Assembly (NCBI GenBank): GCA_015061915.1 | Contig: SUVR01000002.1 | Location: forward strand, 186,670 to 250,669 | Length of the DNA stretch: 64,000 nt | Direction: 5' to 3' | DNA from: Lentisphaerota bacterium | GTDB lineage: Bacteria > Verrucomicrobiota > Lentisphaeria > Victivallales > UBA1829 | In this document: positions 2,436 to 13,240 of the stretch, piece by piece | Numbering within the stretch: the stretch's first letter is position 1 | Layout of the letters: each line of letters opens with the position of its first letter | Notes under the pieces: model-generated | The model's database searches: none | What the model was told of the DNA's origin: nothing | Seen by the model: only the letters and a program-made list of their open reading frames with translations | Program-made: the position numbers and the translations under genes

Positions 2436-5207
2436 TCAGAAGGTGGGAATGCCACCACCTGCACCGTCGGGTCTCACAAGAGATCCATCGGACCGCACCA
2501 GCGTGGCGGTCAGGAAGATCAACAGGTTCGTCTTGGAGGAACCTTTACCCTTGCTCTGGAAGAGTCTGCCGATCACGGGCAGGTCGCCGAGAATCGGGTA
2601 CTGGTCATCAACCATGCTGACTTTATCCTTCACGATGCCGCCGAGAACGACCGTTGCTCTGTCGTAGCAGACAACCTTCGTTTCCACAGAACGGACTTCG
2701 ATGATCGGCATCTTCAGCGTATTGGGCCATTCTTGACCGTCAAGGACGATCTGGTAGGAGTAGTCAACCCATCCTGCAAAATCCAGGATCACGGGGTTCA
2801 TTTCCATTTCCAGCGTGTACTTTTCTTCGTCCAGAATTGCAGGCGTGACCTTCAGCACAATACCTTCATCAACCTGACCATCGCTTTCACGCTGCACGTC
2901 AGGCGTGGAGGGCGTAAACACGCTGGTACCGTCGGCATCGTCGAGAGAGGCTTCTTCCCACTCCGTCGGATAGATCTTCGTGGTGACCATTTTCAGGGAG
3001 GCTTCTTCGCCTGCCATCGTCGTAACACGCGGGCAAGTCAGGGTATCGGCGGAATCCGCCTGATCAAGCGCATGGAGGTTGGCTTCATACTTGTGTCCGC
3101 TGCTGGTCATACGGGACCAGTTGAACACCGTATCATTGACCGTTGTCTTGTCATCGCCGCCGAACGCAACAGGATTCAGATTGGCATTACGGACCATGCC
3201 CTTGCTGTTGGGTTCAAACGTCATGCTGTGACGGGTACGACCGGTGGAGCGGTCTGCAGGAGCTTCCGCAAAGTACCAGTTTGTGCCGGTCATATCATCA
3301 AAAACGACTTTGGAACCGGCAGGAACCTTGCCCTGCGGAATCAGGGTCGTGGGCGTCGTCACATAGGTGTAACCGTTGCCGCTGGCAGTCTGTTCCTGCG
3401 GTGCGGAATAGAGATAAGTCGCACGGTCAAATTTGATTTCCTGACCTGCAAGCGGCATATCCGGATTCAACGGGTCCGGAATGGGGAACACGACCGGCTG
3501 AGGTTCACCCAGCTGATTCGGGTCATAAACATCTTCGCGGCTGATGAAATATTCAAAGCCAAGTTCTTCCAGGTCGTTCTGGGAGATTTCCATAAACTTC
3601 ACCTGAATCTGAACCTGAGGATCCGTCAGAAGCAAGCTGTTGATCACTTCGGAAACCTTATCCAGCATTGCGGGAGTATTTGTGACGATCAGCTTATTGA
3701 TATGCTGGTCATAAACCGCTTTCGCACCATTGCCGAACTTGATGCCGCCGTGGCGTTCCAGATAAGCTTCCAGCGGGGTCTTTTCTTCGCCGTCTTCAGA
3801 AACTTCTTCACCTTCACCAACGGCTCCTTCCATAGAGTCGATGACTTCTTTATCGACCGTGAAGAACAGCGTAACATTGTCATCCAGCGGAACATTTTCC
3901 GGTGCGATCACAACTGCATATTCTTCCACACGATAATGGAGACCGGCACTCTGGCAGATCGCTTCGATCACCTTTTCCAGCGTAATGGCATCCACTTCGG
4001 TTTCTTCAGAAGCATCATCTTCATCGTCGCCATCCGTACCAAGATAGAAGGTAACGGAGGGGAAACCGCCTTCACTTTCACCTTCTTCTTCGGTGTTCTC
4101 TTCTTCCTCACCGTCTTCGGCATTTTCTTCGCCTTTAGCAGCAGAAGCAGCAGAAGCATCATTGAAACGGAGAACAAAGTTCACACCTTCGTGAGAGGGA
4201 TCAAGTTCTTTACTGCGGTCACGCAGGAACTGGATCACTTCATTCAGCGGAGTCTGGTCAAAAACCAGCTTGGTGAACTTGATGGAGTTCAGTTTCGTAC
4301 GGAGGTTCTTGGTGGGATCCTGTTTCAGAACAGGTGCATTTTCCGCTTCTGCATTTTCAGCACTGACTGCAGAAAGCAGAACCGGCGGAACCAGAGACCA
4401 GTTGACTTCGTTCAGAGCGACTTCAGCCGTAAGGTCTTTGCGCTGTTTACCGGCGGCAATCAGTTTCAGCGTCGCGCGGCGCTCCATGTCGATCGCAGAG
4501 ACATTGTAAGGATCCAGCGTGTAGATATAACGGCACTGTTCGATCACATCAGACCAACGACCGATCTTGTAGAAGGCGCGGGCCTTCTGAAGAGTGATTT
4601 CAATTTCGTTGCGGTTGTCATCAAAGTTCGGCAGGACCGTTTCCGTTGCCGTATCTTCACGGAATTCCAAAGCGCGCTTGGCAGCTTCGTATTTAGCAAT
4701 TTCCTTTTCCATCAGATCAGCGCAGGGTTCGTACATCTCTGCAGCCTGACGGCACTTGGCAATCGCTTCATCATATTTCTTCTTCTGGGCATCCTGCTGC
4801 GCAAGCTTGTACAGTTCTTCCGCCCAGCAATGGTAGGCGTTGGAGATGTGCTTGCGGAGCTGTTCGCGCCGGGCATCATTTTCACCGGGCTGGGCCATAG
4901 GCAACTTATCAGTGATCGTCAGCGCCTTGAGGTACTGATTGATCGCTTCTTCATATTTGCCCTGCGTAAAGAAGGAAATACCATTCTTGAACGCTTCTTC
5001 GGCATCACGCTTATTTTCATCGCGTGTCACGATTTCCTTGGCAATCGCTTTGGCATCCGCCTTGGCATCGGCTTTCGCATCTGCAGCGGTCACCGCAGAC
5101 ATTGAACCAAGAACCAGACAGGCAATCAGCGCGGAACCAACCGGTCTCCGGTAGGATTGATTATGCATTACTGCCTCCATAAAATATCTCAAAACATTCT
5201 TAGTCAT
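2436..5207 (-). CDS. Secretin-domain outer membrane protein, second copy (Amuc_1098-like)
   Basis: The C-terminal third is a type II/III/IV secretin domain: the hallmark QYPILGDLPVIGRLF is followed by TNLLIFLTATLV. In secretins this region forms the beta-barrel gate of a large outer membrane ring. The N-terminal half has a signal peptide and a helical TPR-like region (residues about 30-260), then N-domain-like modules interrupted by very acidic Glu/Asp-rich stretches around residues 350-400. It is the last gene of the operon, 13 bases after a related secretin. Two starts are possible: ATG at 5207 (923 aa, GGAGG eight bases upstream) and ATG at 5168 (910 aa, GGAGG five bases upstream), the latter giving the better signal peptide MHNQSYRRPVGSALIACLVL. 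Both proteins end in a GxPxF-like tail. Confidence 0.85.
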   Translation of the reverse strand: MTKNVLRYFMEAVMHNQSYRRPVGSALIACLVLGSMSAVTAADAKADAKADAKAIAKEIVTRDENKRDAEEAFKNGISFFTQGKYEEAINQYLKALTITDKLPMAQPGENDARREQLRKHISNAYHCWAEELYKLAQQDAQKKKYDEAIAKCRQAAEMYEPCADLMEKEIAKYEAAKRALEFREDTATETVLPNFDDNRNEIEITLQKARAFYKIGRWSDVIEQCRYIYTLDPYNVSAIDMERRATLKLIAAGKQRKDLTAEVALNEVNWSLVPPVLLSAVSAENAEAENAPVLKQDPTKNLRTKLNSIKFTKLVFDQTPLNEVIQFLRDRSKELDPSHEGVNFVLRFNDASAASAAKGEENAEDGEEEENTEEEGESEGGFPSVTFYLGTDGDDEDDASEETEVDAITLEKVIEAICQSAGLHYRVEEYAVVIAPENVPLDDNVTLFFTVDKEVIDSMEGAVGEGEEVSEDGEEKTPLEAYLERHGGIKFGNGAKAVYDQHINKLIVTNTPAMLDKVSEVINSLLLTDPQVQIQVKFMEISQNDLEELGFEYFISREDVYDPNQLGEPQPVVFPIPDPLNPDMPLAGQEIKFDRATYLYSAPQEQTASGNGYTYVTTPTTLIPQGKVPAGSKVVFDDMTGTNWYFAEAPADRSTGRTRHSMTFEPNSKGMVRNANLNPVAFGGDDKTTVNDTVFNWSRMTSSGHKYEANLHALDQADSADTLTCPRVTTMAGEEASLKMVTTKIYPTEWEEASLDDADGTSVFTPSTPDVQRESDGQVDEGIVLKVTPAILDEEKYTLEMEMNPVILDFAGWVDYSYQIVLDGQEWPNTLKMPIIEVRSVETKVVCYDRATVVLGGIVKDKVSMVDDQYPILGDLPVIGRLFQSKGKGSSKTNLLIFLTATLVRSDGSLVRPDGAGGGIPTF

Positions 5208-5220
5208 ATTTCAATCCTCC

Positions 5221-7803
5221 TCACTTGCGGAACCGGAAATCCGGAATCCCGTTGTCAGGACGGGCATTGATGGGCACACCGTCGCCGCTGATCAGGCGCG
5301 GAGAAACGGAAATCAGCAGGTTGGAACGGGAAGAAGTGTTTGCCGCCTTGGTGAAAAGTCTGCCAACGATCGGCAGATCACCGAGGATCGGATAACGGTC
5401 TTCCATATTGACCTGCTTATCAAGGACCATACCACCAACCATCATGGTCTGGGCATCAAAACATTTCAGTTTCGTGATCAGTTCGCGCTTGGAAATTTCC
5501 GGCATCTTGATATTGACACGGAACAGGTCCGTGGAAACAACCGTTGCAGGAAGGATCGGCGCAGTACCATCCTCATTATCCGTGTTGATATCTTCATCTT
5601 CCAGCGGATTACGACGGATCACCATATCATAGCTGTAGTCGGTCCAACCGGTCAGGTCCGTAATGCTGGGTTCGAGATCCAGCTGAACCGTGTACTTGTT
5701 GGAGCTGACAGTCGGCGTAACAGTGAACTGGATACCCACTTCGTCCGGTTCGCCGAATTCAGGATAACTGGTTTCCATAGCAACGTCGCCGTCATCGATT
5801 TCAGTATCAGGTGCTTCCCAGGAATCCGGGAAGTACATACTCTTGACCATCTTGATCACTGCAGTATCACCGTTCTTGACAACCACTTTCGGCGTGGAAA
5901 GCTGTTCCAGACGGTCCGTGCGGTCAACCGCGGAAACCGTCAGATAGAAGTTCAGCTGATGTCCGCCGTTCAGGTTCATGTTCGGGATGATATTGAGATT
6001 GTTGATCAGCTTGTCGTTCACGATGCCTTCCACTGCATTGACTGCGGAGGGGGCAACCGAACGGAGCGGAGAACCGAAGGAGAAATTGTAGGCGCTGTTC
6101 TTGTCGTTCGTGTAGGTCGCAGTCCAGTCAAAACCAAGTTCTTCTTCATCGTTGACGGTGATTTCAAGAATTTTGGATTCGATCAGAACCAGCGGCGTTT
6201 CGACGTCGATTTCACGAACCAGCAGTTCCAGTTTCTGCAGGTTTTCGCGGGTATTCGTAACAGCCAGTTTATGGGTCTTGGGGTTGTAGATCACGGAGGA
6301 ACGGTCATCGAACGGGATACCGCGTTCCACAAAGAATGCTCTCAGCTTCTTATCGGAAACAGCACCGCGCTTCTTGCCGCCGCCAGCGGTGATCGTCTTT
6401 TCAATGGAATCAATACCACGTGCGCCCCAACCGCCTTCTTCTTCACCACTTTCGCCTTCCTCTTCTTCCTCATTGGCAGAAGTGATCGTGTGGTAGACAG
6501 AGTTACGCATGGGAATTTCAGTGGATTCATAATCGCTGATACCGTGACCGTAAAGCACGAATGCTTCGCTGGTCTTCCAGGAGATCCCGGCTTTCTTGCA
6601 CAGGTAATTCAGCACAACGCTGATGGGAACATTGTCCAATTCAAGCGTAATTGCGACATTTTCAGTATCGGTTCCGGCGATACCGCGTTCCAGGAAGTTC
6701 ACGCCGAGTTTGCGGGGGTCAACTTCCTGACTTTTTTCACGGATCATCGTAATAGCATCTTTGATGGAATAATCGGCAAATGCCACAGAGATCTTCCAGG
6801 AGCTGAGTTTTTCCATCAGCGGATCTTTGACTTCGCGCTTCACATCATTTGCTGCGCGATTGCCACTTGCGGGAACCGCGTTAGACCACAGCCAGATCGT
6901 TTCTGCATCGCTGCGGAGGATTTCATTATACGCTCTCAGTTCAGAGTAGAAGTAAAGCTTCTTGTAGATTTTGTCCAGAAGTGCAATCGCTTTTGCATTG
7001 GTCGGATCTTCGATAAAGATCTGTTCGCAAAGGTCGCGTGCCTGAGTGTATTGGGAATCCCGGTAAAGATTATTGGCACGAGCATAAAGTTTGCTGATCT
7101 TATCCATACGGTTGGCATAGTTGGGATCGACTGCTGCCGTATCCGTCTGAACACGGAATTCATATGCTTTCGTGATCTTTTCACAAGCAGCCTTCAGCTG
7201 TGCGACACGGACGGCAAAATCCTGATTTCTGACAGTGATCTTTTTGTCACGCCATTCAGGATCGCGCGCGGCTGCGCTGTCAAGCGGATTCACATAGTAG
7301 GTATAACAGGCATCTTCAGCAAGTTCCTTCGCTTCCAGTGCTTTTTCTGCAGATGCAGAGGAAACGCCGGCTTTGGCTGCGCTTTCATAAAGTTTCTTCG
7401 CCTGCTGGAATTTCGCTTCTGCAGCAAGCGCACCGAAGGCGGCATGGTCATCATTGAAACGTTTTACGACTTCATCGTAGTAAAGGATCGCTTCACGGTC
7501 ACCTTTGAGGTCGACCAACTTGGTATCCAGTTTTGCCTTGATGGCTTTGAGTTTTGCGAAGGCTTCAGCAAAATTAATTTCTTTGCCTTCATCCACTTTT
7601 GCCATGCCCTCAACATCTGCAAGATCCTTCAGAATTTCCTGGAATTCTTTGGAACGAGCGTTGACTTCCTTCTGGATCGAGAGCTGGGCAGGTGCTTTTT
7701 CTGCAGCGTTCACCGGAACAGTGATCGCAAAGCAGGCAACCGCAAACACGGGCATCCCGACTTTCAAGGAAGTCAGAAGAAAGTTTGAACAGCTTTTCTT
7801 CAT
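5221..7803 (-). CDS. Secretin-domain outer membrane protein, first copy (Amuc_1098-like)
   Basis: The 860-residue product has a signal peptide, a long helical N-terminal region with TPR-like stretches (residues about 30-290), STN/N-domain-like segments near residue 350-440, an acidic loop (EEEEEGESGEEEGGWGARG near 450) and a C-terminal secretin domain with RYPILGDLPIVGRLF and SNLLISVSPRLIS. It should assemble as an outer membrane ring. In Akkermansia the matching gene, Amuc_1098, is next to Amuc_1099-1102 as here. Its start at 7803 has AAGGA eight bases upstream. Whether the two secretins form one mixed ring or two rings cannot be told. Confidence 0.87.
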   Translation of the reverse strand: MKKSCSNFLLTSLKVGMPVFAVACFAITVPVNAAEKAPAQLSIQKEVNARSKEFQEILKDLADVEGMAKVDEGKEINFAEAFAKLKAIKAKLDTKLVDLKGDREAILYYDEVVKRFNDDHAAFGALAAEAKFQQAKKLYESAAKAGVSSASAEKALEAKELAEDACYTYYVNPLDSAAARDPEWRDKKITVRNQDFAVRVAQLKAACEKITKAYEFRVQTDTAAVDPNYANRMDKISKLYARANNLYRDSQYTQARDLCEQIFIEDPTNAKAIALLDKIYKKLYFYSELRAYNEILRSDAETIWLWSNAVPASGNRAANDVKREVKDPLMEKLSSWKISVAFADYSIKDAITMIREKSQEVDPRKLGVNFLERGIAGTDTENVAITLELDNVPISVVLNYLCKKAGISWKTSEAFVLYGHGISDYESTEIPMRNSVYHTITSANEEEEEGESGEEEGGWGARGIDSIEKTITAGGGKKRGAVSDKKLRAFFVERGIPFDDRSSVIYNPKTHKLAVTNTRENLQKLELLVREIDVETPLVLIESKILEITVNDEEELGFDWTATYTNDKNSAYNFSFGSPLRSVAPSAVNAVEGIVNDKLINNLNIIPNMNLNGGHQLNFYLTVSAVDRTDRLEQLSTPKVVVKNGDTAVIKMVKSMYFPDSWEAPDTEIDDGDVAMETSYPEFGEPDEVGIQFTVTPTVSSNKYTVQLDLEPSITDLTGWTDYSYDMVIRRNPLEDEDINTDNEDGTAPILPATVVSTDLFRVNIKMPEISKRELITKLKCFDAQTMMVGGMVLDKQVNMEDRYPILGDLPIVGRLFTKAANTSSRSNLLISVSPRLISGDGVPINARPDNGIPDFRFRK

Positions 7804-7867
7804 AATTGCATCCTTACGTTATGTTTTATGTTTTATGTTATTATGTTTCAATTCAAAAAGCAACAGT

Positions 7868-9166
7868 TTAAGAAGCGGCTCCGTCTTCAACGGCTTCTCC
7901 ATCCTGAGCCGGAACAACGATCTTATATTCCGTACCTTTGCCGTCTTTAAGGACCAGAACAGTATTGGATCCGGATCCCTGAATTGCAACAGCGGTATAT
8001 TCTTCCGTACCGAATTCTTCACTTCCCAGCGTAATTTTCTCGCCGATCCGGACATTATACTTCTTCTGATCAATGGTACTGATCAGGAAAACCCGCAAAT
8101 GACCGGTAATGATCGGCTTGTTTTTGTAGCACTTGAAACGCAGAGCCGGTTCTTTGATGGAAACGATCTCAGCCACAGGCTGTTTCGTTTTTCTGATCTC
8201 GCCGTTGCGGCTGTTTTTCACTTCGACTTCTTCGACACTGATCTTATCCAGCTTGAATCCGATTGAAGGAACAAATCCCTTCGGATCGGAAGTGGCACGC
8301 TTACGATACTGGATTTCAGAACCGACTTTGCACGTTTCCATACGGCGGATCTTGCCATTGCTGGTATAACGGAATTTGCCACGGTCTGCACCGATTTTAT
8401 CTTCAAAGAGAATATTGGAGATCTCGCCGCGGAGCTTTTCATCAAGAAACTCATCGAAAGCGACATCTGCAGTGACTTTTTCGCTGTCCAGGACCAGCTT
8501 CGTCACATAAGCAGGGTGGCTCTTGGGATCGCAAGGATGCGTTCCGGCAAGATATTCCGCCTTGTCATCGAAACCGTCATTATCATTATCGCCGACAGGT
8601 GCAGGTTCATCACCGGAAGCGGCAACAAAAATCTTGTGCAGTTCTTCCCAATCATCGGGGATACCGTTCCGGTTCGTATCGTTGTCGCTGACCGGCTTGC
8701 TCTGATCGACCACATCAGCATCCGCCTTTTTGGGTGCATCCAGCGTCACATGACAGAAAATGCACTTTCCTTTTTCATCGGAACCGATGGGAGGGAAGGA
8801 GCTGATCGGCGTCAGATGGATGTCATTTGCATTTTTGCAAAGTGCCATCTTAACAGGGATCATCATATCGACCTGTGCGGCATTTTTATCATCTCTGAAG
8901 GGATTTTTTCCATCCCACAGATCACTCCAGCCGAGATTATTCTTATCAAAAAGAGCTTCTCTGCTGAATTCTTTTGCGTTATAATCCGTTTTCACAAAGT
9001 CAGCAGGCGGTTCCGGCGCATTGACAATGTCATCCACCTTCTTTCCCTGCGACTTCTGCACAACGGAAAGCTGCAGGTAAAGCAGACCGGAAAAGAGCAG
9101 CAGCAAAACTGCCAGGATCACTTTTTCATAGTGTTTATGAACGAATGTATTGGAAGCCATAGTCAT
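7868..9166 (-). CDS. Amuc_1099-like pilus-system protein with Ca-binding repeats
   Basis: The 432-residue protein starts with a single membrane helix (residues about 16-36) and otherwise should lie in the periplasm. It carries CIFCH (135-139), a CxxCH motif that could bind heme c or, more likely, be part of a metal knuckle, followed by two thrombospondin type 3-like acidic calcium repeats (DNDTNRNGIPDDWEE at 161-175 and DNDNDGFDDKAEY at 193-205). The remainder is beta-rich. Its position between the 1100-like gene and the secretins matches the Akkermansia order, which is the main basis for the family name. A second ATG at 9160 has the better spacing from GAGG and may be the true start. Confidence 0.7.
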   Translation of the reverse strand: MTMASNTFVHKHYEKVILAVLLLLFSGLLYLQLSVVQKSQGKKVDDIVNAPEPPADFVKTDYNAKEFSREALFDKNNLGWSDLWDGKNPFRDDKNAAQVDMMIPVKMALCKNANDIHLTPISSFPPIGSDEKGKCIFCHVTLDAPKKADADVVDQSKPVSDNDTNRNGIPDDWEELHKIFVAASGDEPAPVGDNDNDGFDDKAEYLAGTHPCDPKSHPAYVTKLVLDSEKVTADVAFDEFLDEKLRGEISNILFEDKIGADRGKFRYTSNGKIRRMETCKVGSEIQYRKRATSDPKGFVPSIGFKLDKISVEEVEVKNSRNGEIRKTKQPVAEIVSIKEPALRFKCYKNKPIITGHLRVFLISTIDQKKYNVRIGEKITLGSEEFGTEEYTAVAIQGSGSNTVLVLKDGKGTEYKIVVPAQDGEAVEDGAAS

Positions 9167-9171
9167 TTACC

Positions 9172-10530
9172 TCATTTCTTTGCGTTCATGATCTGGTCGC
9201 CGGTAAAGACGATGTAGTTAATATGGAAAACAGCATAAACTTCATCATTGACCCCGATCAGAGCTGCGCCCCAGTTATCGTTGACGATGCTTTTGTTTTT
9301 CTGTGCCTGTTTGATCTGTTCTTCATTTCCGGCGTTTTCCTCCGGAATGGTATTCAGCAGCTTTACATAGCTCATCGTGTTAGCAATCTCTTTGCTGTAT
9401 GTGCTGTCAGCTTTTCTGGCATCTTCATTTCTGTCACAACTGAGATTGAGATAAGTCACCAGGTAAACACGGTTGTTCTTGTATTCCTGATGCAGCTTAT
9501 TCGCAAAGTCGCGGATCTGCGGCAGAGTGCCACGAACTTCCAGCTCAGTGCTGAAGGTGCTGTAGCCGTTGTCTTCTGCATCCGGCAGATAACTTCCCGC
9601 ACGATAGAGGGAAACCAGTTTCACTCCGGCTTCACTCATATTTTTGATCAGATTTTCATAAATCTGAATGCGGGTCATAATGTAAGGAATATTTTTGTTC
9701 CCGATCTTGTTGAGAGCGGCGTCATTGGACTCTTCATCTTCGTCCGTGACTCCACGGCGACCGGTAAAGAGATTCGTGATCCGGGATTCGTTATTGTCCA
9801 TTTCCATATTGGCAAAGGGAATTTTCTTTTTCGCCACAAGATCAAGAGTATATTTCGAAAAATACGGTGCGAACTTCAGCGCATTTTCAAAGGACCGGGG
9901 CAAGCCCAATGCCTGCAGAAAAACAGCCTTCTGTACGGCGTATTCATCTTTCTCGCTGTTGAGATCTTCCAGCGTCACTTTGGAAGCTTCCGCCAGGAAC
10001 GCAGCAAACGCCTTATCATAGGCTACGCTGTCCTGAGCATCAGCAGAGGCAAGGATTTCTTCTTTCACCAGGCGGTAAAGTTTATTCAGACCGTCAATTC
10101 CGGGATTGACCGGCTTGAAATCTTTTCCCATATCCTTGACTTTTTTGACAAGGATTTCATGCAGACCATTCAAGGTCATTGCATCCGCTGCTTTTTTGAA
10201 CTTTTCAGAAGCGGCTTCCTTCTTGAGCGTATCAAGAAAAGCATTGACTGCGGGATCAAGATAGCAACCGAAAACACGCTGCTGTTCTTTTGTTTTCTGT
10301 TCAAGAGCGGCGGCGTCTTCATTGATCCGCACGGCATTTGCTTTCACCACGCGGGGATTGGTCTGCGCCGTGATCGCATTGATTTTGCCGTTGATATTAT
10401 CAATATTCTGCATTTTCTCATTGATCGCCTGATACTGCATGACGACCAGGGCGATCAGCACGACTGCGATCACTGCAGTTACGCCAAGGACCACCACAAG
10501 GGTCATATTTTTTTTGATAAATTCTGACAT
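9172..10530 (-). CDS. Amuc_1100-like pilus-system protein
   Basis: The 452-residue protein has a short cytoplasmic N-terminus, one membrane helix (residues about 10-32), a coiled-coil segment just after it (QYQAINEKMQNIDNINGKIN) and a mixed alpha/beta remainder that ends with strands like those of PilO/GspM-type ferredoxin folds. Its length is larger than the roughly 317 residues known for Amuc_1100. A typical AAGGAG ribosome site precedes the ATG at 10530. It follows the PilM-like gene by 21 bases, so an inner-membrane alignment complex of PilM-PilN-PilO type is the expected role. The family call rests on gene order and domain layout. Confidence 0.65.
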   Translation of the reverse strand: MSEFIKKNMTLVVVLGVTAVIAVVLIALVVMQYQAINEKMQNIDNINGKINAITAQTNPRVVKANAVRINEDAAALEQKTKEQQRVFGCYLDPAVNAFLDTLKKEAASEKFKKAADAMTLNGLHEILVKKVKDMGKDFKPVNPGIDGLNKLYRLVKEEILASADAQDSVAYDKAFAAFLAEASKVTLEDLNSEKDEYAVQKAVFLQALGLPRSFENALKFAPYFSKYTLDLVAKKKIPFANMEMDNNESRITNLFTGRRGVTDEDEESNDAALNKIGNKNIPYIMTRIQIYENLIKNMSEAGVKLVSLYRAGSYLPDAEDNGYSTFSTELEVRGTLPQIRDFANKLHQEYKNNRVYLVTYLNLSCDRNEDARKADSTYSKEIANTMSYVKLLNTIPEENAGNEEQIKQAQKNKSIVNDNWGAALIGVNDEVYAVFHINYIVFTGDQIMNAKK

Positions 10531-10551
10531 TGTATTTCTCTCCTTGGTGTA

Positions 10552-12309
10552 TTATTTCGCTACCGGCCAACAGATGGTGAACGCGGAAAGGTTGATTCCG
10601 GGAACCACATCATTTTTATAATAGTCATTCATCGTGCCGGAATCCAGACGGTATTCCTTATTCAGGACACCTTCCACAAACTTACCGAGCATGGTGCTGT
10701 GTTCACCGGCACCGGTCTTACCGGAAACGATATAACCTTTGAAACTCAACCAGGTTCCGGAAGCCTTTTCTTCCGACTTTTTCTCACCTCTGATAGAGCG
10801 TTTTTCCTTTTCCTTCAGGGAGAATTCAGGCTTATTGGAATAAACCACATTCGTAAACCAGAGCTGTTCATTCAGTGTCTGGTTGTTTCCGGCTGCTTCT
10901 GCAAAATATTCTTTCACATAGCCTTTCTGGATCACATCAAGTGCGGTCAGGAAGGAATTGCGTTTCTGCAGGAGCTGATCCGTAATATAGGAATGTTTCA
11001 CAGCACTCGCCTTCTGGCTTCTCTTGGCAGCTTCCACGCTCCGTTTCACAACCTGTTTTTCAGAAAGTTTCTGATTCATCCGGTTTTCCTTGATCTGCAA
11101 TTCGTCCACCTGCTGACCAAGGGACCAGAGGGAAATCAAAAGATAAACAAGGACAACTGCGGCGGAAGCGTAAATGTACGGCAGTTTCTGACGCATACGC
11201 GCCTGCTGTTTCACCGATTCCGGCACAAGAGCGATTTCCACCGGTGTAGAACGGAAACTGCGCATTGCAAGACCGATCGTTTCACCGCAGAGGTGCGCCT
11301 GTTCCTGCAACATTTCCTGATTCATATCCGGACTCAGATTGATCACCTGGAATGCATTGAAATAATCTACAGGGATCCGCAGTTTTTCCACAAAGAAACG
11401 CGGAGTGAATGCCATCACAGAACTGCCACCCGCCAGATACATCTTTTCCGGCTTTCTGCCATGCTGGGAAGCACGGTAAACATTGATCGAGCGGTTGATT
11501 TCTCCATGAAGTCTGGTCATCACATTACGGATGATCTTGGAAACGGTTGCCGCAACATCAGATTCCGGTTCTTCGTAAGCACCGCCGAGAGCGACAAAGC
11601 CATGACGGCGTTTGATTTCGTCCGCATCTGCAAAAGACATATTGAATTCTTTGGCGATCTGCTGGGTGATCGTATTGCCGGCGACCGGAATCGTACGGAT
11701 GAAGAATCGGGGACCATCCACAAAAATGAGCGTGGAGGATTTACCGCCGATGTTCAGGATCATCTCACACTGGGAATCTCCAATCCCGTTCGCACGGGCA
11801 GAGTTATAAAGAGCAGTGGGGGAAACTTCAATGGAAACGATCTTTTTTCCGGCTTCAGCGAGTGCATCGCGAATTGCAAGGACTTCATCATTCTTGACGC
11901 TGACCAGCATAGCATCAATTTCATCACTGCCATCCTGATCCTCAATCAGCTGGTAATCCCATGCGACCTCATTCAACGGATAGGGGATCCGCGATTCAGC
12001 TTCGTATGTGACCAGTTCCCGGATCTTTTCCGGATCGGTGGTCATTGCGGGGATCTTGATGAAGGGGATCAGTGCATCCTGCCCCGTAATCGCAACAAAC
12101 GCTTTTTTCGCTTTGAAGTCATTGTTTGCGAGCATTTCCTTCAAAGCATAAATCATTGCTTCCTGAGCGGTCGCTTCATCAGAGTCGTTCGTGTACTCAG
12201 AGTACACAAAGCTTTCCATTTCGATGTTCTCTGATGTGCAAGAGAACTCAGACATCTTGATGCTGTCAGCACCAATATCAATACAGAGAATTCTTTCTTG
12301 TCCTGCCAT
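10552..12309 (-). CDS. PilM-like actin-fold ATPase fused to a PilN-like part (Amuc_1101-like)
   Basis: The first 350 residues match the PilM/FtsA/actin fold: phosphate-1 loop ILCIDIGADSIKMSEF at the N-terminus, a second loop ILNIGGKSSTLIFVD near 190, and YLAGGSSVM near 300. A membrane helix follows at about 385-405 (YIYASAAVVLVYLLISLWSL), then a coiled coil and a C-terminal periplasmic domain. This is the arrangement of a PilM cytoplasmic protein joined to a PilN-like membrane protein, as in Amuc_1101. In type IV pilus machines PilM and PilN link the cytoplasmic motor to the periplasmic ring. The gene starts five bases after the 1102-like stop. Confidence 0.8.
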   Translation of the reverse strand: MAGQERILCIDIGADSIKMSEFSCTSENIEMESFVYSEYTNDSDEATAQEAMIYALKEMLANNDFKAKKAFVAITGQDALIPFIKIPAMTTDPEKIRELVTYEAESRIPYPLNEVAWDYQLIEDQDGSDEIDAMLVSVKNDEVLAIRDALAEAGKKIVSIEVSPTALYNSARANGIGDSQCEMILNIGGKSSTLIFVDGPRFFIRTIPVAGNTITQQIAKEFNMSFADADEIKRRHGFVALGGAYEEPESDVAATVSKIIRNVMTRLHGEINRSINVYRASQHGRKPEKMYLAGGSSVMAFTPRFFVEKLRIPVDYFNAFQVINLSPDMNQEMLQEQAHLCGETIGLAMRSFRSTPVEIALVPESVKQQARMRQKLPYIYASAAVVLVYLLISLWSLGQQVDELQIKENRMNQKLSEKQVVKRSVEAAKRSQKASAVKHSYITDQLLQKRNSFLTALDVIQKGYVKEYFAEAAGNNQTLNEQLWFTNVVYSNKPEFSLKEKEKRSIRGEKKSEEKASGTWLSFKGYIVSGKTGAGEHSTMLGKFVEGVLNKEYRLDSGTMNDYYKNDVVPGINLSAFTICWPVAK

Positions 12310-12314
12310 ACTTC

Positions 12315-13163
12315 TTATCTCCCGGCTGCCTGTTTTTTGGTGTGTTCCTGGCGTTCAAAATCAACCCATGCCCACGGGCTGTCTGAACCGGACAACACAA
12401 CATCAAACAATTCAAAATAGCTGCGGTTGTTTGCGTCATAATCCTTAAAACGGGCGGCAACCGCCGCTCTATCGTCATTTTTCATTTTGCCGTTCATTTT
12501 GTCCTTAATAAAAGAAGTGAATTCTTTTCCGGCAGGCTTGATTCCCTGCACTGCGGCACCACCGGCTCCTTCGATCGTCACACGGACAGGAATACCGGAA
12601 AGGATCTTTTCCAAATTCTTCGGCGGTTCTTTGTAGCCGACAAAATAGCGGGACACCGTAGCGGGAGAAAGATAGCAACGGATCACATGGTAAACGTAAT
12701 CACCTTTTTCTCCGACAATGTATCCGGGAGGGACAGCAAGGCCGCCGACATTTGCCACCGGTTCCAGTGTAAAATCACCGGAAAGGACCGCCCATTCCCA
12801 TCTGCCGTTCGGACCGATGACCGGGCTGAGCAATTCGACCTTAACTTTCAGATTATCCAACCACGGTGCTCCGGCTTTCGTGTTCGTCTTGAACGGAACA
12901 GCGATCTCACACCAGGGACGGGAATACTTCAATTCCGGTGCATCTTTTCCTTTGGAAAGCTCATACCGGGGCACAGTCTTCATTGAAACCGTGATCACAC
13001 CCGGAATATCTTTTGCGATTTCACTGGACTCACCACTTCCGGTTTTCGAGTCAAGGATCTGAACAAGTTGTGCGCCGCCACGCCCGCCTCGCTGCGCATT
13101 CAGCGTTGAAGCACCACACAGCAACAGAACGGTCAAAACACCGAAGATAATTCTGTTTTTCAT
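12315..13163 (-). CDS. Amuc_1102-like secreted protein, first gene of the pilus-like operon
   Basis: The 282-residue product has a clear signal peptide (MKNRIIFGVLTVLLLCGAST, then LNAQRGGRGG) and a beta-rich mature part with no enzyme motif. It is the promoter-proximal gene of the six-gene operon. The Akkermansia counterpart Amuc_1102 is secreted and reported to have an immunoglobulin-like fold; the resemblance here is by position, size and export signal, so the name is tentative. A GAGGAG ribosome site stands seven bases before the ATG. Confidence 0.6.
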   Translation of the reverse strand: MKNRIIFGVLTVLLLCGASTLNAQRGGRGGAQLVQILDSKTGSGESSEIAKDIPGVITVSMKTVPRYELSKGKDAPELKYSRPWCEIAVPFKTNTKAGAPWLDNLKVKVELLSPVIGPNGRWEWAVLSGDFTLEPVANVGGLAVPPGYIVGEKGDYVYHVIRCYLSPATVSRYFVGYKEPPKNLEKILSGIPVRVTIEGAGGAAVQGIKPAGKEFTSFIKDKMNGKMKNDDRAAVAARFKDYDANNRSYFELFDVVLSGSDSPWAWVDFERQEHTKKQAAGR

Positions 13164-13211: not shown

Positions 13212-13240
13212 AAAATACAGTCTGTTTTCCATACTTTCAA
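13212..13240 (-). promoter_or_regulatory. Promoter of the pilus-like operon
   Basis: On the minus strand TTGAAA (13240-13235) and TATTTT (13217-13212) are 17 bases apart, about 50 bases before the ATG of the Amuc_1102-like gene. A TG pair precedes the -10 box. Confidence 0.5.

Follow-up and report, generated by a model that had tools for sequence, protein, structure and literature searches.

What do two different secretins do when one pilus operon encodes both, one directly behind the other? To our knowledge, the solved secretins of type IV pili are rings of one protein. The window analysed here, a 64,000-nucleotide stretch from the genome of a gut-type Lentisphaerota bacterium of the order Victivallales, contains such an operon, a minus-strand unit of six open reading frames at positions 2436-13163, with coordinates identical to those of the original prediction. 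The Amuc_1102-, 1101-, 1100- and 1099-like genes come first and are followed by the two secretins, here called SecA and SecB. The intergenic gaps along the unit are 5, 21, 5, 64 and 13 bp. The features of the locus, from its 5' side, are as follows.

13212..13240, minus strand: promoter-like site 5' of the unit (consensus scan, 9/12 matches; the count of such sites in the region is not above chance)
12315..13163, minus strand: secreted Amuc_1102-like protein of 282 aa, which opens the unit (PDB profile match 7dsz)
10552..12309, minus strand: Amuc_1101-like PilM-PilN fusion, 585 aa (PilM_2, 122.7 bits, and PDB profile matches)
9172..10530, minus strand: Amuc_1100-like protein of 452 aa with an N-terminal TM (match to NF038287 at E 2.5e-6, under the cut-off; operon position)
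7868..9166, minus strand: Amuc_1099-family protein, 432 aa, N-terminal TM (NF042425 match)
5221..7803, minus strand: SecA, first secretin, 860 aa, architecture as in SecB
2436..5207, minus strand: SecB, second secretin, 923 aa, with TPR region, N0, N1, secretin barrel and conserved GxPxF tail
3132..3536, minus strand: insert in the barrel region of SecB (about residues 558-692), specific to the lineage of the source genome
2388..2417, minus strand: intrinsic-terminator-like hairpin just past SecB (13-bp stem and T-rich tail; consensus match only)

The Akkermansia gene order Amuc_1102-1101-1100-1099-1098 with a doubled secretin, as first proposed from the letters, was confirmed by the open reading frames and the family matches. 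Both long reading frames scored far above the cut-off of 27.5 bits for the Pfam secretin domain PF00263, with 99.3 bits for SecB (residues 713-905) and 90.7 bits for SecA (residues 626-838). The best NCBIfam family of both was Amuc_1098_fam, at 316.8 bits for SecB and 226.7 bits for SecA; these values lie below the equivalog cut-off of 750, making the two proteins family relatives and not equivalogs. TPR_2 was above its Pfam cut-off in SecB. The PilM gene likewise matched Amuc_1101_fam best (397.5 bits), under the equivalog cut-off of 650. When its family profile was compared with PDB sequences, residues 1-352 matched PilM (E 2.9e-56), and residues 358-491 matched Myxococcus PilN (3jc8_Na, E 6.3e-6).

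The remaining three proteins were recognized with varying clarity. The 1099 protein passed the NF042425 cut-off of 50 with 51.6 bits. Compared with PDB sequences, its family profile matched neither PilP nor GspC; the protein probably has a PilP/GspC-like role, linking the inner platform to the secretin, as its position suggests. A CxxC...CxxC motif and DxDxDG loops are conserved in its family alignment (A6; window 7868-9166), which suggests that this platform protein of the pilus binds zinc and calcium. The Amuc_1100-like gene reached 27.2 bits against an NCBIfam cut-off of 180; the top PDB matches of its family profile were the two Amuc_1100 structures, at an E value of about 0.1 that is not significant alone, and we infer a PilO-like role for it. 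The Amuc_1102-like gene had no Pfam or NCBIfam match, and the top PDB match of its family profile was the solved Amuc_1102 (7dsz), with a modest E value of 0.0045. Membership of the Amuc_1098-1102 families thus held for the 1098, 1101, 1099 and 1102 proteins, with the first two below equivalog level, and was weak for the 1100 protein.

In Akkermansia, Amuc_1098 is PilQ, and the Amuc_1098-1102 cluster is type IV pilus-like (PMC4960237, PMC5332112). Lentisphaera araneosa also carries an Amuc_1098-like PilQ (PMC4960237). The locus described here shares with the Akkermansia cluster the gene order, the families and an N-terminal TPR region ahead of N0, N1 and the barrel, but Akkermansia-type loci have one secretin where this one has two, and its 1100- and 1102-like proteins bear a weak resemblance to those of Akkermansia. 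From the classical pilMNOPQ operons of Pseudomonas, Myxococcus and Vibrio, we could detect PilM, PilN and PilQ by profile comparison with solved structures. Unlike in those operons, PilM and PilN are fused, the secretin carries TPRs, PilQ is duplicated, and PilP is unrecognizable by sequence. In these six genes we recognize the envelope part of an ordinary type IVa pilus machine, here with PilQ present twice, in a variation on the Amuc_1098-type pilus locus. In the literature searched, an incomplete collection, we found no relevant paper on tandem or hetero-oligomeric PilQ or other secretins, or on the pili of Lentisphaerota or Victivallis, and none on Lentisphaerota secretins beyond the remark on the PilQ of L. 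araneosa (PMC4960237).

No pilin, PilB or PilC gene had been reported in the window, and this absence still stands. It raised the idea of a secretin machine without motors and unrelated to type IV pili, which the PilM-PilN fusion in the operon already argues against. The source genome (2.49 Mb in 31 contigs, 97% complete) contains all of the missing parts elsewhere. Contig C9 holds two PilB genes, one PilT and one PilC (114327-119557); prepilin-like proteins with N_methyl above cut-off occur at five scattered places, one of them at C9:111,880; and a Peptidase_A24 match of 51.6 bits identifies a prepilin peptidase. As far as gene content can refute it, a motorless machine is refuted, and we regard it as scarcely credible. 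Bacteria usually have split pil loci, and motors at a separate locus are common to the classical type IVa systems and the source genome. The second PilB might have been tied to the second secretin. This link was rejected: adjacent PilB doublets are widespread in the order and also occur in single-secretin relatives, including an Akkermansia-type genome (G024), so that the gain of a second PilB was separate from that of a second secretin. A separate Tad-type cluster (L026:6495-14751, source genome G000, contig C26) comprises CpaB, an FHA-fused CpaF-like ATPase and two T2SSF proteins, and has no secretin nearby.

The spread of the doublet was followed in loci anchored on PilM, not on the secretin, and fetched regardless of secretin number. 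SecA followed by SecB on the same strand was found in 31/31 genomes examined from Victivallales, covering six families, with a median gap of 17 bp between the two genes. A second genome collection agreed, with the doublet in Victivallis vadensis MAGs and in the complete genome of strain zth2. The copies are 25% identical and the doublet recurs in independent genomes, which rules out an assembly artefact. Among other Lentisphaeria, ten genomes had a single secretin, two genomes of family f10 had three, and one Lentisphaerales contig had two. Outside the class, one secretin was present in 21 of the 23 loci with enough downstream sequence, and two in the other 2; L229, cut by a contig end, was left out. 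The Akkermansia-type loci L093 and L094 had one secretin each. The doublet is thus routine in the order, and not in the wider phylum. Further tandem double or triple PilQ genes at the PilM locus were seen in L227 (G078), L231 (G125), L091 and L239 (G192 and G209) and L173. Like the Victivallales locus, those of Lentisphaerales (double in L173, triple in G192 and G209) and of G078 and G125, from two other families of the phylum, carry two to three secretins in a row beside PilM.

SecA and SecB share 25% identity over about 800 aa. In a tree of 113 secretins they formed separate clades of 44 and 43 sequences (SH-aLRT 100 and 99), with similar internal branching in the two clades and the single copies outside the pair. 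In a wider tree of 97 secretins, SecA and SecB joined each other first (95), and next to join were the single-copy secretins from other orders, with a divergent unassigned secretin (L248) inside the SecA and SecB group. The Lentisphaerales duplications (clade 99) and that of G078 (pair 98) were placed apart from SecA/SecB, so that these tandem PilQ genes, most of the further ones seen, arose by duplications separate from the Victivallales one. Both trees were quick ones without bootstrap, in which long rows are placed less surely. Read from these trees, a single tandem duplication of PilQ preceded the diversification of Victivallales, with both copies kept as complete secretins, and separate PilQ duplications took place in Lentisphaerales and in one or more further families. 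That PilQ was duplicated in tandem more than once would fit plain gene dosage or redundancy. Against this, the identity of the two copies is about 25%, and both have been kept across the whole order; mere dosage seems very unlikely to us.

We then asked whether the two copies differ. The structure models, which were of monomers only, had mean pLDDT values of 77 for SecA and 75 for SecB, and each showed N0, N1 and the whole of a secretin barrel behind an N-terminal region made of helices. Their significant Foldseek matches were almost all solved secretins, with V. cholerae PilQ ranking first for SecB (6w6m) and second for SecA. The secretin hallmark and the tail had been predicted to be kept in both copies, and indeed barrel, lip motif and tail were retained; the lengths of the core segments were equal in SecA, SecB and the single copies. 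A degenerate copy, or one without a domain, was not seen in the paired loci compared, with models and segment lengths complete. The segment from ELGF to LSxP is 175 aa long in the SecB of the source genome, against a median of 83 in SecB orthologues. This large insert, partly of low confidence in the structure model, was rejected as an A/B difference, being lineage-specific.

One copy might form the channel while the other has an accessory part, for instance as a cap, as a helper in assembly or as a second ring in the periplasm. The TPR regions, which are the most diverged and show no co-variation, would be expected to behave so with different partners. However, with barrel, lip motif and tail intact in both copies of the paired loci and core lengths equal, we judge an accessory role improbable. 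The divergence of the two copies was also equal, with a mean p-distance of 0.65 for SecA and 0.62 for SecB. Their distances were correlated with r 0.94, which is no more than expected from shared species history alone. No clade-diagnostic residue (at least 80% conserved in both clades, with a different letter in each) was found in the SecA/SecB alignment, so nothing yet indicates distinct ring positions for the two proteins.

A more specific signal came from comparing pairs within and between genomes. In N1 (z -4.0) and in the barrel (z -7.0), SecA and SecB of the same genome were closer to each other than a SecA and a SecB taken from different genomes; in N0 this excess was weak (z -2.3), and the TPR region did not show it (z -1.5). 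The excess in N1 and the barrel persisted after a composition control (z -7.1) and was spread over many alignment columns. Exact DNA matches between the two genes of one genome were at most 20 nt, except in L085 and L099, and no long conversion tracts were seen among them. The long matches in L085 and L099 were discounted, as they are explained by overlaps of 68 and 53 bp between the called reading frames. Co-variation of N1 and the barrel is what would be expected of subunits in one ring, and we therefore read it as joint assembly. The similarity within genomes could also have another source, be it a partner or a membrane common to both proteins or short tracts of gene conversion long ago.

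The main rival holds that SecA rings and SecB rings are two homomeric channels sharing one inner platform, that is, two versions of the machine, e.g., for different pilins, conditions or cargo. Each copy is complete, from N0 and N1 to barrel and tail, and could form its own ring, and the genome encodes five prepilin-like proteins at scattered places. Yet both copies lie in one operon with 13 bp between them and no convincing internal promoter, the source genome has a single set of type IVa motors, and it is the ring-forming domains that co-vary within genomes while the TPR regions do not. Two separate channels seem to us less probable than one joint gate. That SecA and SecB are subunits of one outer-membrane gate is the reading that we favor tentatively, giving it somewhat less than an even chance on these comparisons of sequences.

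In the arrangement we favor, PilQ was duplicated in tandem once before the order diversified, and both copies were retained. The unit encodes the part of a type IVa pilus machine that spans the envelope, with motors and pilins supplied from other loci. Beside the PilM-PilN fusion and the PilO-like protein, it supplies the 1099 protein, which would connect the inner platform to the secretin. SecA and SecB would meet in one gate, either as a mixed, perhaps alternating, ring or as two stacked rings, and the single platform and single motor set would serve this joint gate. Both the joint assembly and the linking role of the 1099 protein are what we infer. Of the mixed or two-ring machine without its own motor that was originally proposed, the joint assembly is a live possibility; the missing motor is not, with the motor genes on C9. 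Ring domains that change in step over a whole order make the question of whether a secretin can be a hetero-oligomer directly testable by co-expression, and natural controls are at hand in the sister orders with one copy and in the duplications that arose on their own.

The source genome also contains eight genes of a family of smaller secretin-like proteins. They form four tandem pairs, each with a gene X (470-522 aa) followed by a gene Y (529-698 aa):

L022:7115-10269, contig C4: X-Y pair
L023:6852-10536, contig C8: X-Y pair
L021:7648-10653, contig C27: X-Y pair
L020:8201-11499, contig C22: X-Y pair

Both X and Y matched solved secretins by profile, with identities of about 34-43% between X proteins, about 37-43% between Y proteins and about 22% between X and Y. 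X occurred in 54/231 genomes of the phylum, all in the order of the window and none outside it, and Y lay directly after X in 62 of the 65 fetched cases (median gap 18 bp). Genes for the import of solutes (phosphate, iron, amino acids) often lie behind the pairs. In six loci a PstS-like binding protein was encoded just downstream on the same strand, mostly together with a permease and an ATPase, and other loci had NMT1-like binding proteins or NMT1-type ABC importers, or amino-acid permeases, downstream. As a control, few transporters were found among the genes upstream of the pairs. One apparent iron-uptake cluster (L020:5558-12757, G000, contig C22) has DUF3793, flavodoxin, X, Y and FeoB on one strand. 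The loci are non-independent, several sharing a genus, and the neighbor pattern is given without a formal test. As a lead and not a result, the X-Y pairs may be secretin-derived gates for uptake. A bolder proposal, which we hold to be possible but less likely than not, is that SecA and SecB have formed one hetero-oligomeric type IV pilus secretin through the history of the order. Going further still, Victivallales may make wide use of paired secretin-like proteins, with the X-Y pairs letting solutes through the outer membrane to supply importers in the inner one. A role of the pairs in uptake would take secretins beyond export and the assembly of pili; we found no description of such pairs in the literature searched, itself an incomplete collection. 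Behind the lone unpaired secretin of the genome (L024:6830-10594, G000, contig C25) come genes for a MacA-like adaptor and an ABC ATPase, an order that would suit a secretin acting as the exit duct of an ABC exporter.
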